Assembly: GCF_000217795.1 (NCBI RefSeq)
Contig: NC_015681.1
Coordinates: 1,603,244 to 1,667,243, forward strand
Source: Thermodesulfatator indicus DSM 15286
Lineage (GTDB): Bacteria; Desulfobacterota; Thermodesulfobacteria; Thermodesulfobacteriales; Thermodesulfatatoraceae
Length of the DNA: 64,000 nucleotides
Direction: 5' to 3'
Part shown: one piece after another, positions 57,900 to 64,000 of the stretch
How positions within the stretch are numbered: the stretch's first letter is position 1
Layout of the letters: each line of letters begins with the position of its first letter
Translations under genes and position numbers: made by a program
The notes under the pieces: generated by a model
What the model saw: the letters and a program-made list of their open reading frames with translations, nothing else
Told to the model about the DNA's origin: nothing
Database searches by the model: none

Positions 57900-59039
57900 T
57901 TATATAATTTTTATAGTCTGGCCAGAACTTTTTGATATTAATAATTCGTCGTACAAATCTATTAATTTATTAAAAGTTTTTTCCCATGAAAAAAGTTCTT
58001 TTGTTTTTTGATGTAATTCAATGCTTAATTCTTTCGAAATACAATTGCTAGCCTTGATTATTGCTTCAGCGAGAGCTGTGCTGCTTATTTCTTTAACTAG
58101 AAAATCCTTTTTAAATTGTGTTTGTAGTCCCAAGTCAAATGCAACTAGTGGTAGTCCGCAACTTTGGGCTTCTAAAAATGTTAAAGCAAATGTTTCGTAG
58201 TGAGATGCACTTACAAAAATATCAGCATTATTATATATTTGTGCTAGGAGGATTTCATCTTCTATATGTCCAATATATGTTAAATTCTTTGTCTTATTAG
58301 CTTTTATTTTGAGCCAAGAGCTTAATGGCCCTGATCCTACTATTATCAAATGGAACTTTTCTTCATCCAGATTTTTTAGTGTCTTTATAAGTAGTTTTAT
58401 ATTTTTATCAATAGCAATTCTTCCAACATATAATAATTTAATTTTGTTATTATTTATCCCAAATTTTTCCCAGAAATTTGTTGTTTTTTTCATGGGTTTA
58501 AAAATATTGGTGTCAATACCTAATTCAATAGTTTTAACATTTTGAATCCCCATATCTTCAAGGATTTTTCTATATTTTTGTGAAGGCGTGATGATAATAT
58601 CACTTTTTTTAAGAACATTTTCTATTATATATCCCAAAAATAGCTCTTTTAGGTGTTTAGGAGCTGGAAATAGATTTGTATCATTTATTAAGTCTGAATG
58701 ATAAAATATTGAGCAAATTTGATTTTTATTTTGAATTAAAGGAATAAGTGTGTAGCATCCTCCAAATTCAATTATATCTGGATTTTCATTTTCAATAATC
58801 TTGTTTACTGTTTTTATACTTTTAAAAAATCTATATCCTCCTGTTCCAGGTATTGGTATAGAATTTATTTCATAAATAGTTGATTTGCTTTTTATATATT
58901 TTTTGTTTCCTTTTCCAGGAATAATAACTATATGTTTTATATCTCTATATTTTTCTAAAATTTCTACCTTTTTATCTATATATTTCTTTATACCTCCACT
59001 TTTTTTGTGATAGTATATGGTGATATCTAATATTTTCAT
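57900..59039 (-). CDS. Glycosyltransferase family 4
   Basis: The 379-residue protein is a GT-B fold GT4: SGGIKKYIDKKVEIL at the N-terminus, then a nucleotide-sugar half with KLLYVGRIAIDKNIKLLIKTLK, LIIVGSGPL, YIGHIEDEILLAQIYNNADIFVSAS and HYETFALTFLEAQSCGLPLV (E-x7-E motif). It likely makes a surface polysaccharide or glycolipid. GGGAG precedes the ATG. It overlaps the end of the PHP-GT gene by 68 bases. AT-rich. Confidence 0.88.
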   Translation of the reverse strand: MKILDITIYYHKKSGGIKKYIDKKVEILEKYRDIKHIVIIPGKGNKKYIKSKSTIYEINSIPIPGTGGYRFFKSIKTVNKIIENENPDIIEFGGCYTLIPLIQNKNQICSIFYHSDLINDTNLFPAPKHLKELFLGYIIENVLKKSDIIITPSQKYRKILEDMGIQNVKTIELGIDTNIFKPMKKTTNFWEKFGINNNKIKLLYVGRIAIDKNIKLLIKTLKNLDEEKFHLIIVGSGPLSSWLKIKANKTKNLTYIGHIEDEILLAQIYNNADIFVSASHYETFALTFLEAQSCGLPLVAFDLGLQTQFKKDFLVKEISSTALAEAIIKASNCISKELSIELHQKTKELFSWEKTFNKLIDLYDELLISKSSGQTIKII

Positions 59040-61272
59040 TCTTTTTCTCCCTATTAAAGAATATTTCGTTTATATAATGTAAATATGTTTCTTCCAGGTT
59101 TAAATTTTGAGCAGTATAATAAGCCTTTTTTGATAGATTGTCTTTTATTTTATCGTTAGTTAGTAGTAAAGCTATATATTTAAGATAGTCATCTTCTTTT
59201 TGTGCAATGAATCCATTTTCCCCGTGTCTAATATGTTCATGGGCCGCTCCTTTGTTGCTAACAATGACTGGAAGTCCACTAGCCATAGCTTCTAAAACTA
59301 CTAGTCCATATGTTTCTGTTTCTGAGGGGAATAGAAATATATCTGAATTACTATAAGCTTTAGCTAGTTTTTCGCCTTTTAAATATCCGGTAATAAATAC
59401 ATTCTTTGGTTTAATTTTTTCTATATGATTTTTATATGGACCATCTCCTACTATAATAAATATTTGATCCGGTAGTGATTTGGCTATTTTTATAAATGTA
59501 TCTAGATTTTTTTCTTTGGATATTCGTCCAACATAAAGTATTTTTGTTTTGTTCTCTATTTCTATGTTTAGTTCTTTTTTCCAAAAATCTTTTTCTTTTT
59601 TATTTGGATTAAATAGATTAGTATCAACTCCTCTAATAAATGTTCTGACTTTGTGGCTTTCTACTCCATGAAATATTAATTTTTCAGCGTATACTTTTGA
59701 TGGAACTAAAATTTTGTCGCATTGGTTACAAAACCATGATAATAATTGCCAGCTTAATTCATAGTTTTTGGGATTTTCTGTGTATTTTAGTATGTATTGT
59801 GGAACGTCAGTATGAAATGTGAAGCTTATTGGTAACTTGAATATTTTCCCTGCTAAGAAAAATAATATCCCCAGAGGTGCTGGAGTTGCTATATGAATGT
59901 GAGAATATTCTCTCTCTTTTATTAAGTCAAAAATGTCTATTATTGAGGGAATTCTTAAGCGAAATTCGTTATAAAATGGAGTAGGCAAATCTATATAGGT
60001 ATTTAAATTAATGCATTCTTCATCATTTAATGAACTGTGGCTCATTGTAATAATATCTATTGGTAAATTGTGTTTTATTTTTAAGTTTTTTATTATTTGT
60101 GCTGTTCTAGATACTCCATTTATTTCGTAATATGTATCTGTTATATATGCAAGTCTATTGTGTTCTTTTATATCTATCTTTAATTTTTTGGCAATATTTT
60201 TTGTGTGGTTTTCTTCTTCTTTTTGTAGATATAATATTATTATTGGTAATAGCTGAGATAGTGTCGCTAATAAAAGCTCTCCTAAGTTTTGACAATTAAA
60301 CTCTTTTTTTGTTTTTTCAAAAGTCCAAAATGGAGCTCTTTTAAGGATTTCTTTTAGTAGTAATTCTCTATTGCCGTTAATATTTGTAAAATTTTTTATT
60401 AAATAATCTACAAAATTATTTTCTTTAAATAAAAAGATATGATCTCCGACTTCTTTTATTTCTTTTGGTACTTTGTTCTTTTCTTCAAAATATTTGTAGG
60501 TTATTCTTAAAACGGTATTTATTAATCTTTCTTCGCCTAGTTTTTCTGTTTTGGCCATTGTTTCACCTTTATTGATTGCTTCCAAAAAATCTTCTATTGT
60601 CTTAGCTTTTGCTTCGGTCCAGGTTCTACCTGCATCCATTCCTCCATGATCATCTGATCCTCCAGTAAAAGTAATTTCTGCTCTCGTTCTTCTAGAGCGA
60701 ATATTATATTTTTCTTCTAATCTTCTAATTTTTTCAAAACCTTGATATTTTGCTATTATCGATTTTTCAATAGTTTGTGTTTTTTGACTTCGAGTTCCAT
60801 TGATTATTTCCCAATTATCAAATAGTAAGATAAACTTTTCTACTATAGAAATACTTAATGGTTTTCGGTTTACCGGATATAGTGGATGTGCTAAGGTATG
60901 AGCAATATTTTTTTCTTTTATGTAATCTATAAAATCATATACATTTTCTCTTAATTCGTTTAGTATTTTGTGCTCATTTTCATCAATTCCATAACATAGT
61001 ACATGTATGTCGTATTTTTCTTCTGGAAATTTAACTGTGTACTCGCAGCCAATAAATACTTCTGGTTTGTCTGCAATTTCTAATACACCATTAATAGTGT
61101 TATGATCAGTGATAGTAATAAATGTCATTCCTCTTTCTTTTAATCTTTTGTATAATTCTTTAGGTTCTGTATAGCTTTCTGGACAGTTAAATATACTTGA
61201 TAACCATCCAGCGGGACTGTTAGATGCTTTTGAGTGTACATGTAGATCAGCTTTCGCCATAAAGTTCTTCAT
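58972..61272 (-). CDS. PHP domain fused to GT4 glycosyltransferase
   Basis: The 766-residue protein combines a PHP-type domain (about residues 5-235), a helical linker (about 235-385), and a GT4 glycosyltransferase (about 390-745). The PHP domain has ADLHVHSKASNSPAGWL, FITITDHNTINGV, HTLAHPLYPV and GGSDDHGGMDAGRTW for metals. The GT4 has VSRTAQIIKNLKIKHN, FTFHTDVPQYILKY, ILYVGRISKEKNLDTFI, IVGDGPYKNHIEK and ETYGLVVLEAMASGLPVIVSN. Both catalytic centres look intact. ATG 61272 has AGGAGG 11 bases upstream; ATG 61260 is possible. Confidence 0.88.
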   Translation of the reverse strand: MKNFMAKADLHVHSKASNSPAGWLSSIFNCPESYTEPKELYKRLKERGMTFITITDHNTINGVLEIADKPEVFIGCEYTVKFPEEKYDIHVLCYGIDENEHKILNELRENVYDFIDYIKEKNIAHTLAHPLYPVNRKPLSISIVEKFILLFDNWEIINGTRSQKTQTIEKSIIAKYQGFEKIRRLEEKYNIRSRRTRAEITFTGGSDDHGGMDAGRTWTEAKAKTIEDFLEAINKGETMAKTEKLGEERLINTVLRITYKYFEEKNKVPKEIKEVGDHIFLFKENNFVDYLIKNFTNINGNRELLLKEILKRAPFWTFEKTKKEFNCQNLGELLLATLSQLLPIIILYLQKEEENHTKNIAKKLKIDIKEHNRLAYITDTYYEINGVSRTAQIIKNLKIKHNLPIDIITMSHSSLNDEECINLNTYIDLPTPFYNEFRLRIPSIIDIFDLIKEREYSHIHIATPAPLGILFFLAGKIFKLPISFTFHTDVPQYILKYTENPKNYELSWQLLSWFCNQCDKILVPSKVYAEKLIFHGVESHKVRTFIRGVDTNLFNPNKKEKDFWKKELNIEIENKTKILYVGRISKEKNLDTFIKIAKSLPDQIFIIVGDGPYKNHIEKIKPKNVFITGYLKGEKLAKAYSNSDIFLFPSETETYGLVVLEAMASGLPVIVSNKGAAHEHIRHGENGFIAQKEDDYLKYIALLLTNDKIKDNLSKKAYYTAQNLNLEETYLHYINEIFFNREKKNENIRYHHILSQKKWRYKEIYR

Positions 61273-61939
61273 AATTAAGAGTCCTCCTGTTTTTAGCTTT
61301 TTTTATTAGTTTTTTCCATAGTTTAACTTTTTCGTTATCATGAAAATCTCTCATATGAATCGCAAATCTTATAGTTGGGAACTTAGAAAATAGTTGAAAT
61401 AATATTTCTGATGACCATTTACTAATTTCGGATAATAGATAGCGGTTACTAAATGTAATTGTTGGAGTAAAAATTTTTTTCTTTGAAAAAAAATTAATTT
61501 TTTCTCTATAGCTTATACCTTTGAAATCGTGTTTTATTAGGGCACTTTCTAAGAACTTGTTTGATATCCATGCTGGTGGTACAAAATATGAGGTTTTTAA
61601 TTCTAATTTTTTAAATATTTTCTTCCCTTCTATTATTCGCTTAAATGTTTCTTTTTTGTTTAGTTTGTTGAATTCTCCTTCTCCATTTGTTGCCCAAAAA
61701 TATTTTAGTGAATTTTCTCCTGTATGTTCGTATCCATGTAAAATTATTTCTTGTTTACATGCTTTAATAAGATTTGTGAATTTTACGTGTTGTTCTATGT
61801 TGTATTTGTTTTTATAGTTTGGAATTAATAGAATACAATATTTATTTATTTCCTCTTCAAATATTAATTTTAAAGCTTCAAAAAATTCATTTTTATAAAA
61901 AGGGCTAACATCATGTAATTCTATTATTATTTTTTTCAT
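61247..61939 (-). CDS. Polysaccharide deacetylase-like protein (DUF2334)
   Basis: The 230-residue protein has the start IIIELHDVSPFYKNEFFE (Asp-containing motif 1), EIILHGYEHTG (metal His pair in the HGYEH motif), SYFVPPAWISN and FAIHMRDFHD (late His). This is the DUF2334 carbohydrate esterase type. It overlaps the start of the PHP-GT gene by 26 bases. Substrate probably the polysaccharide made by these genes. AT-rich. Confidence 0.82.
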   Translation of the reverse strand: MKKIIIELHDVSPFYKNEFFEALKLIFEEEINKYCILLIPNYKNKYNIEQHVKFTNLIKACKQEIILHGYEHTGENSLKYFWATNGEGEFNKLNKKETFKRIIEGKKIFKKLELKTSYFVPPAWISNKFLESALIKHDFKGISYREKINFFSKKKIFTPTITFSNRYLLSEISKWSSEILFQLFSKFPTIRFAIHMRDFHDNEKVKLWKKLIKKAKNRRTLNYEELYGES

Positions 61940-62144
61940 TTTTTATTAATATGCTTCTATTCTTTCTTTTGTCACTGTATAAGTGTGCAAATTTTGCTAA
62001 CATCTAATTACAATTTTATGTCAAATGTTTTACTGTTTTTTAAACTAAAATTTACATTTATGAATTTGTGATATAGGAAAGTAATGGTCGATCCCTCTTG
62101 AGATTTCTTTTTTATTTCTTATTTTCAACTTTAAGGAGGTGCTT

Positions 62145-62426
62145 ATGGGGATTGAGCCTGAAGACATTATAAAAAAAGAAGTAGTTACTGGTTTATCAGT
62201 AGGTTTAGGACTAGCTTATGTATTACCCAAATTACTACCTGTTTTTGGTCAAGCTGCCAAACCTATTATTAAAGGTATGATGAAAGGTTCTATTATTGCC
62301 TATGAAAAAGGTAGAGAAACTTTGGCAGAACTGACTGAGACTTTAGAAGACTTATGGGCAGAAACAAAAGCTGAGCTAGAAGAAGAAATTGCGTCTCAAA
62401 GCGGAGGAAAAAAGGATGCCGAGTAA
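62145..62426 (+). CDS. DUF5132 family small protein
   Basis: The 93-residue protein starts MGIEPEDIIKKEVVTG at ATG 62145, right after AAGGAGG. A Gly/Ala-rich hydrophobic segment (LSVGLGLAYVLPKLLPVFG) could insert in a membrane; KPIIKGMMKGSIIAYEKGRE and an acidic helix follow. This is the DUF5132 pattern. The family occurs near HMA_2 proteins and metal-ATPase genes. Function unknown. It overlaps the HMA_2 gene by 11 bases. Confidence 0.7.
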   Translation: MGIEPEDIIKKEVVTGLSVGLGLAYVLPKLLPVFGQAAKPIIKGMMKGSIIAYEKGRETLAELTETLEDLWAETKAELEEEIASQSGGKKDAE

Positions 62427-62871
62427 GCCTGAGGCCTTTGTTGTTCATAGTCTTAAAGGACGGGTCAGGCTTAAAGCCCCAGCTCTTAAAAATCGCCCAA
62501 AAGAATTAGATCATATTATTTCAACCATTGATAGTCTTGAAAACGTTAAAAAGGTATCAGGTAATCCCCAAACCGGAAGTATCCTTTTGGAATACGAAGG
62601 AAGCCCTCAAGTTTTTTGGAATAAACTTCGTGAGCTCGATGTTTTGGACATAAAAAAGGCCGAAGAAGTGGCGGTGAAGTCACAGTTACAAACCGTCTTC
62701 AAGAAAGCAGACGAAGCTATAAAAGAAAGTTCCCATTATCGTTTAGATTTAGGAACATCAGTTGGACTTGCTTGTGTAGCGGTAGGCCTTTATCAGCTTT
62801 TAAGGGGGAGAACGAATCTTCCCTCTTGGTATACGGCTTTTTGGTACTCCCTTCATTTTTTTAAAAAATAA
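62416..62871 (+). CDS. HMA_2-domain protein with C-terminal membrane segment
   Basis: The 151-residue protein begins with an HMA_2-like domain: VVHSLKGRVRLKAPALKNR, VKKVSGNPQTGSILLEYEG. A charged helix and a hydrophobic helix (LDLGTSVGLACVAVGLYQLL) follow. The CxxC of copper-binding HMA domains is absent, so metal binding by Cys is not expected. The GRVRLKAP motif recurs as GRVRFRAP in the ATPase at the right edge. ATG 62416 chosen for the aaaagg ribosome site and coupling to the DUF5132 gene. Confidence 0.75.
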   Translation: MPSKPEAFVVHSLKGRVRLKAPALKNRPKELDHIISTIDSLENVKKVSGNPQTGSILLEYEGSPQVFWNKLRELDVLDIKKAEEVAVKSQLQTVFKKADEAIKESSHYRLDLGTSVGLACVAVGLYQLLRGRTNLPSWYTAFWYSLHFFKK

Positions 62872-62885
62872 TAAGGAGGTAAGTT

Positions 62886-63641
62886 ATGGCTGAAGAAAAA
62901 AAAGAAATACTGGAAGCGTCTCAGTCCTCTACGGGTTTAAATATTCCAAACCCTTTTTCTCTTCTTGGAACTGCAGGTCGAGCCGTAAAAGATGGAATTG
63001 TTAGTAGCCTTAAAGGCTTACAAGAGATTGAAGCCGAAATTATTACTCTTACCCGCAACACTATAATCGATGTTTTGAGAGCCGCAGGAGATGTCACCAA
63101 AGAGGGAATAAATGTTATTGCAGATACCATGAAAGGGGCTATCCAGGCCACCGAAGAAGTTGGCACTGGGGCTATAATGAGTGTTAAAAGTGTGGCAAAA
63201 GGATTGATCCTGGGTGTCCACGAAGTAGGTGGCGATGTTGTTAAAGCCGCTTCTGAAATTGCCAGAGATGCCGTAAAAAATGCCGCTGCTGTGGGAGCGG
63301 ATGTAGCCGAAGTAGCTCGTCGTACTGTAGAAGGAATAATTGAAGCTACCCGCGAAATAGGTGGAAATGTTGAGGAAGTGGCTAAAGCAGCGGTAACTGG
63401 AGCAGTAGAAGGTGCCAGTGAAATCAGCAAAACAGCTACCACTTCTGTTAAAGAAGTACTTGTCGGAGTAGTAGGTAGCACTAAAGAAGTGTTAAGCACT
63501 GCTTTGCCAAAAGGGGCCAAGTCAACTCAAGAAAAAGAACCAGAAATTATTGAAGTTAAGGCTTCGACTCCTAAGTCAGAGAATACCGAAACTAAAGAAA
63601 CGAAGAAAGAAACTAAGTCTAAAGGCAATAAAAAGTCTTAG
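62886..63641 (+). CDS. Protein with seven 22-residue amphipathic helical repeats
   Basis: The 251-residue protein has a short N-terminus and a C-terminal Lys/Glu-rich tail. Between residues 47 and 200 are seven contiguous 22-residue units: 47-68, 69-90, 91-112, 113-134, 135-156, 157-178 and 179-200. Position 2 is nearly always Val or Ile, position 1 mostly Glu, and position 16 mostly Gly (Asp in two units). Units start EVGTG, EVGGD, AVGAD, EIGGN and EISKT. The 22-residue period is that of surface-seeking amphipathic helices in apolipoproteins. AAGGAGG precedes the ATG. No known family is recognised. A coat or scaffold on a membrane or particle is inferred. Confidence 0.75.
   Translation: MAEEKKEILEASQSSTGLNIPNPFSLLGTAGRAVKDGIVSSLKGLQEIEAEIITLTRNTIIDVLRAAGDVTKEGINVIADTMKGAIQATEEVGTGAIMSVKSVAKGLILGVHEVGGDVVKAASEIARDAVKNAAAVGADVAEVARRTVEGIIEATREIGGNVEEVAKAAVTGAVEGASEISKTATTSVKEVLVGVVGSTKEVLSTALPKGAKSTQEKEPEIIEVKASTPKSENTETKETKKETKSKGNKKS
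63024..63485 (+). repeat. Coding region of the seven 66-base (22-codon) units
   Basis: The DNA encodes seven tandem 22-codon units with no spacers. Similarity is clear at protein level (Glu-Val/Ile-Gly starts, Gly at position 16) but the DNA copies have diverged, so the repeat is old and kept by selection on the protein. Confidence 0.65.
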
Positions 63642-63649
63642 TTATTGCC

Positions 63650-64000
63650 AATGGCCTCACTAGAACTTCAAAAGATTCATGAGCTCAGGGGCCGCGTGCG
63701 TTTTAGGGCCCCTGTGCTTTATCGGGCGTTTCACTTAAAGGATTATCTTGAAGGAGTCCTTTCCAGGAACGGTCACATAAAAAAAGTTAAGGTTAATCCT
63801 TTAACGGCTACTATTTTGCTTGTTTTCAAACCTGATATACCAATTGAAAAGATAGAGGCTGAACTTAAATCCTACCTTGAAAAACTGCCAAGTCCTTCTG
63901 AGGTGAAAAAACTAAAAAGTGAAGCTAAGCCGGTAGTTGCATCTTTAAAAGAAGACGGCCCCCCGTGGCATACTATGCCGGTTGAAGAAGTTTTAAAGCT
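63650..64000 (+). CDS. P-type ATPase with N-terminal HMA_2-like domain, 5' part
   Basis: Starts at ATG 63650 and runs off the right edge (117 codons seen). The first 75 residues form an HMA_2-like domain: IHELRGRVRFRAPVLYRAF, then VKVNPLTATILLVF. After a linker, PPWHTMPVEEVLK matches the start of the cation-ATPase N-terminal domain. The rest, including catalytic Asp, is outside the window. The related GRVR motif in the neighbouring HMA_2 protein suggests a shared docking role. Ion unknown; heavy metal or iron inferred from relatives. Confidence 0.7.

Follow-up and report, generated by a model that had tools for sequence, protein, structure and literature searches.

The right end of the window (the whole stretch of 64,000 nucleotides analyzed here, from the single 2,322,224-base contig of Thermodesulfatator indicus DSM 15286) carries the first genes of a conserved operon, which, read past the window edge, encodes in order a DUF5132 protein, an HMA_2 protein, a 22-residue helical-repeat protein, a P-type ATPase, and a metK-like protein (MetK2). 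Our preferred explanation, to which we assign a probability of about 0.4, is that the five products form a membrane-bound ion-pump assembly that couples the movement of divalent cations to the acquisition of phosphate and includes a MetK turned to a new use. The gene set, its order, the protein families, their residue patterns, and the association with pst/phoU and corA seen in relatives are the observations from which we infer this function. If the link holds, the operon would represent a dedicated bacterial system for calcium-phosphate homeostasis and provide first handles on DUF5132 and HMA_2, families without known function.

Operon layout and distribution

Genes to the right of 64 kb, which the initial annotation had proposed to read, were examined in locus L002 (genome positions 1664000-1680000; L002 position equals window position minus 60756). 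They comprise the complete ATPase gene and MetK2; beyond these, the opposite strand carries one more HMA_2 gene and a gene for a Zn-ribbon protein (Table 1). The operon genes overlap or stand at most 15 bases apart, and the ATPase may start at 63645 (TTG) or 63651 (ATG). The 4 features named in the initial annotation, namely DUF5132, HMA_2, the 22-residue repeat, and the P-type ATPase, are all present, as judged from Pfam matches and sequence periodicity.

Table 1. Coordinates of the operon genes and adjacent features (window positions unless prefixed L002).
Feature	Position	Strand	Remarks
Divergent intergenic region upstream of operon	61940..62144		between DUF2334 gene (- strand) and DUF5132
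DUF5132 protein, 93 aa	62145..62426	+	PF17195, E 1.7e-11
HMA_2 protein, 151 aa	62416..62871	+	PF19991, E 1.1e-21
22-residue helical-repeat protein, 251 aa	62886..63641	+	lag-22 periodicity; AlphaFold2
P2A-type ATPase (by sequence), 5' part with N-terminal HMA_2 domain	63645..64000	+	gene cut by window end
Complete ATPase, 1001 aa	L002:2889-5894; ends ~66650 in extrapolated window coordinates	+	
MetK2	L002:5891-7081 (extrapolated 66647-67837)	+	divergent metK; TIGR01034, 359 bits
Downstream HMA_2 gene	L002:7116-7487	-	
Downstream Zn-ribbon gene	L002:7429-7821	-	overlaps HMA_2 gene
PHA_gran_rgn gene	L002:7906-8178	+	

Using the repeat protein as bait, we scanned 84,980 species genomes and recovered 50 loci, which come from Thermodesulfobacteriota, Nitrospirota, Desulfuromonas/Geobacteraceae, Methylomirabilis, and Brocadia; the scan reaches loci that carry the bait, the frequency of the other genes without it lying outside its scope. 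Searches with hidden Markov models built from at most 4 seed sequences found all five genes in each of the 32 loci with enough flanking sequence. The linkage claimed in the initial annotation is thus strongly supported across several phyla and is not a product of chance. In L076 (L076:1-4433), the order is permuted to ATPase-MetK2-DUF5132-HMA_2-repeat, yet the complement is complete, indicating that the gene set survives rearrangement.

Among 60 relatives, strong matches to the repeat protein are found in 6 (G000, G004, G007, G008, G022, and G047), to which DUF5132 is also confined; MetK2 (708-778 bits) is present in 5 of these and in no other relative, the matches in the remaining genomes being partial copies or a canonical metK scoring at most 412 bits. 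In G007, the contig stops inside the ATPase gene, and the rest of that assembly yielded no MetK2; the ATPase open reading frame is broken near the contig end (L023:424-2523 / L032:5702-8224). The nearest named operon-bearing relative is Thermodesulfatator autotrophicus, with a repeat protein of 91% identity. Comparison of L002 with L024 revealed a strong purifying pattern in all genes (dN 0.10-0.25, dS >1 or saturated). Relatives of the repeat protein were not found in a search of plasmids. No paper on DUF5132 or the five-gene combination was found in the literature searched, which covers few subscription journals; within it, the set appears undescribed.

Several genes around the operon also deserve mention. 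The Zn-ribbon is an IS1/IS1595-type zinc domain without a transposase, and its pair with HMA_2 (L002:7116-7821, - strand) recurs near many operons, on either side. Upstream, positions 57900-61939 (- strand) hold a DUF2334 deacetylase-like gene, a gene fusing a PHP domain to a glycosyltransferase, and another glycosyltransferase gene. These three, which border the operon in G000, G004, G007, G008, and a Caldimicrobium MAG (L027/L079), may form a linked glycolipid or glycan module. G049 carries an orphan relative of the repeat protein (L028:8976-9824, 282 aa), unaccompanied by the other operon genes.

The ATPase and its membrane partners

Judged by its sequence, the ATPase belongs to the P2A calcium-type pumps and not to the P1B heavy-metal pumps: it scores 575 bits against TIGR01522 versus 245 bits against the P1B model, and its nearest solved structures are LMCA1, SPCA1, and SERCA. 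The P2A hallmarks, including DKTGT, PEGL in TM4, and the acidic and amide calcium ligands of TM5 (N-x-S-E) and TM6 (N-x-x-[ST]-D), are invariant across 42 homologues. We take the TM4, TM5, and TM6 residues to be equivalent to SERCA Glu309, Asn768/Glu771, and Asn796/Thr799/Asp800, respectively. In LMCA1, a pump that moves a single calcium ion, site I is occupied by Arg795 (PMC11977196). All 42 sequences align an arginine with this residue, and for this reason the ATPase likely moves only one Ca2+ in each cycle, not two, although Mn2+ is possibly transported instead. The protein thus shares the whole ATPase core, the calcium-site residues, and the Arg795-equivalent arginine with LMCA1 (lmo0841) and the SERCA/SPCA pumps, but differs from them in its N-terminal HMA_2 fusion and in its fixed place within a five-gene operon.

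HMA_2 domains occur in 2 separate proteins and at the ATPase N-terminus. The upstream HMA_2 protein is modeled as a ferredoxin-like domain with a GRxR loop followed by three C-terminal helices, of which the last two are hydrophobic (AlphaFold2 pLDDT 88); in Foldseek searches, matches to true HMA domains were weak throughout. The CxxC metal site is absent from all sequences examined (0/49 HMA2a, 0/33 HMA2b, and 0/42 ATPase N-termini). An xRxR motif is found in 49/49 homologues of the upstream protein and G-R-x-R in all 42 N-terminal domains of the ATPase, an arginine-rich loop that may bind an anion, either lipid or phosphate.

These features bear on the initial suggestion of a ferrosome-like iron compartment. 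Ferrosome (fez) clusters likewise combine a P-type ATPase with small membrane proteins, but their FezB is a P1B-6-type ATPase, and both pump class and linked genes differ: calcium pumps are the closest structures here, and the recurrent neighbors are pst, phoU, and corA rather than iron genes. Given the pump class and the missing metal sites, we reject the ferrosome reading as highly improbable. The initial annotation would itself have abandoned this idea for a plain Ca/Mg pump whose neighboring genes are unlinked in related genomes; the pump does fall in the calcium clade, but the other genes are very strongly linked in relatives.

DUF5132 consists of a hydrophobic N-terminal half and a charged Glu/Ala-rich helix, with invariant K/E positions in an alignment of 29 homologues. 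This layout resembles that of PacL1, the DUF1490 protein of the Mycobacterium tuberculosis PacL1-CtpC system, a small membrane protein with a Glu/Ala-rich cytosolic part encoded beside a P1B-type ATPase (PMC9374683). The operon could accordingly encode a PacL/CtpC-effluxosome-like platform for calcium or manganese export, in which small partner genes accompany the ATPase and MetK2 is an unimportant or regulatory passenger. We regard this as unlikely: the ATPase belongs to another class, the DUF5132 alignment contains no conserved His/Asp cluster that would form a C-terminal metal-binding motif, the operon adds HMA_2, the repeat protein, and MetK2, and the supposed passenger equals the other genes in tightness of linkage (32/32) and surpasses the pump in conservation (62% versus 47% identity between G000 and G047). 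Homology of DUF5132 to PacL was considered and dropped, as Pfam provides no sequence link; DUF1490 was not among the matches of the 29 members scanned at E<=10.

The repeat protein lacks a transmembrane segment and has a charged, disordered tail. Compared with itself at a lag of 22 residues, the sequence gives a similarity of 0.99, a value reached by none of 2000 shuffles, and it comprises six 22-residue units, with lags 22 and 44 dominating over 54 homologues. AlphaFold2 (pLDDT 76) predicts an array of helices starting at residues 72, 94, 118, 140, 162, and 182. The protein, described earlier as an apolipoprotein-like coat candidate, is real, but the family label is weak, since the Pfam matches (Phasin_2 and Senescence only) are below threshold. 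Assignment to the apolipoproteins, phasins, or another coat family was rejected for the same reason and for want of a natural PDB match, the likenesses found being designed helical repeats only.

MetK2, a divergent member of the methionine adenosyltransferase family

MetK2 passes the TIGR01034 cut-off, and the genome encodes a canonical metK elsewhere, which scores 595 bits with the same model and adjoins an adenosylhomocysteinase gene (C1:2288830-2289957). MetK2 sequences form one clade (support 100/100), separated from canonical MetK by a long branch, and each of the 5 relatives with MetK2 carries a normal metK as well. Residues are given in human MAT numbering, mapped by conserved motifs and in agreement with the residue names in PMC6850014. 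The triphosphate- and metal-site residues His29, Asp31, Lys265, Lys285, and Asp291 are kept in 39/39 MetK2 proteins, and Lys181 and Arg264 in 38/39. By contrast, the contacts to the methionine amino group, Glu70 and Asp258, are gone: Asp258 is replaced by His in 39/39 sequences, and Glu70 by Arg in 34/39, with Glu in 0/39. Lys289 is Arg in 39/39, Gln113 and Ser114 are lost in 37/39, and Asp134 is Asn in 29/39.

In MAT, methionine is contacted by Glu70, Gln113, and Asp258, and the Ser114Ala variant is nearly inactive in SAM formation; tripolyphosphate hydrolysis is independent of SAM formation, and neither the mutants tested nor Asp258Gly, a variant from a patient that lowers SAM, showed a change in phosphatase activity (PMC6850014). 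The replaced methionine contacts and the kept triphosphate residues lead us to infer that MetK2 does not work as an ordinary SAM synthetase, and the exchange of two acidic residues for mostly basic ones suggests an anionic rather than an ammonium-bearing substrate. It may instead be a local SAM synthetase isoenzyme with an altered methionine pocket, as the retained catalytic His, Asp, Lys, and Arg and the TIGR01034 score would allow; the loss of Glu70, Asp258, and Ser114, the Lys289-to-Arg exchange, the human Asp258Gly phenotype (PMC6850014), and the normal metK in the same genomes make this improbable. MetK2 thus shares with MetK/MAT the fold family and the triphosphate and Mg/K-site residues but differs in its methionine-amino contacts, its separate clade, and the company of a normal metK. 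Its interest lies in this combination, in which residues for phosphate chemistry are kept and those for the amino-acid substrate are lost, in a protein fixed together with a putative calcium pump across several phyla.

Phosphate and CorA linkage and the proposed function

Genes of the pst/phoU group lie within ~6.5 kb of the operon in 16 of the 50 loci (L026, L036-L039, L043, L045, L048, L050, L053, L054, L057, L063, L065, L077, and L079), a count to be read in light of the many other contigs too short to judge. Twelve of the 16, mostly from Nitrospirota, contain several pst-phoU cluster genes; L026 (G047) has PstS and a permease beside the operon, and single genes are found in L036 (Nitrospira), L038, and L079 (the Caldimicrobium MAG; PstS, 397 bits with TIGR00975). 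By a rough estimate, such adjacency would arise by chance at a rate of a few per cent, phylogenetic dependence making an exact p-value meaningless; because most pst-linked loci are from Nitrospirota, it may have few independent origins. L034 and L068 were not accepted as pst loci, as their PstB-like matches are 27-28% identical and neighbor molybdate-type, efflux, and B12/siderophore-type transporters. In 8/50 loci, corA starts at most 8 bases from the end of MetK2. Together with MetK2, these neighbors shift the theme of the operon from transition metal to divalent cation and phosphate.

In the genome of T. indicus itself, PhoU is encoded ~0.3 Mb from the operon. The best PhoB-like tandem site upstream of the operon, TTGACATAAAATTGTAAT, agrees at 12/14 positions; across 42 loci, such sites (E. 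coli consensus) are in slight excess over shuffles only, and a de novo period-11 search upstream of the operons yielded nothing above random windows from the same loci. No Pho box could thus be demonstrated, and this, like the distant PhoU, counts against our preferred explanation.

In the assembly that we favor, the P2A ATPase would export Ca2+, or possibly Mn2+, from the cytosol, held in a platform by DUF5132, the HMA_2 protein, and its own HMA_2 domain. The basic GRxR faces of this platform would have phosphate or anionic lipid, not metal, as their ligand, and the helical-repeat protein may serve as a cytosolic scaffold or coat upon it. MetK2, as a former SAM synthetase no longer binding methionine normally, could now work on the triphosphate end of ATP, tripolyphosphate, or another anionic substrate. 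Such a system would balance cytosolic Ca2+ and phosphate while phosphate import is high.

The same genes could alternatively build an acidocalcisome- or volutin-like calcium-phosphate store, with the pump loading Ca2+ into a vesicle, the repeat protein coating it, and MetK2 processing short-chain polyphosphate. A calcium-type pump linked to phosphate uptake genes and CorA, an amphipathic repeat protein with weak Phasin_2/Senescence similarity, a triphosphate site retained in MetK2 with Arg and His gained, and a PHA_gran_rgn gene (putative polyhydroxyalkanoate system) near the operon in 5 loci (L002, L035, L040, L046, and L069) are consistent with such a store. Acidocalcisomes and volutin granules share the calcium pump and phosphate theme, but the T. 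indicus genome has neither PPK1 nor PPK2, which counts against an ordinary polyphosphate granule. PPK1 is present in only 3/25 cluster-bearing genomes, but also in just 1/60 relatives, so that its absence is typical of these lineages rather than operon-specific. Because, in addition, neither a proton pump nor a pyrophosphatase turned up among the recurrent neighbors, we consider a store of this kind rather doubtful. A broader version, in which many anaerobes and Nitrospirota without PPK1 possess a calcium-phosphate organelle or membrane platform with a MAT turned (tri)polyphosphate enzyme, is a long shot.

Two further gene types recur near the operon. LMWPc/ArsC-like genes, another phosphate/arsenate theme, lie nearby in L039, L045, L064, L065, and L072, and 14 loci, among them L026 (L026:6011-6241), encode a small DUF3562 protein, often immediately behind MetK2 or CorA.
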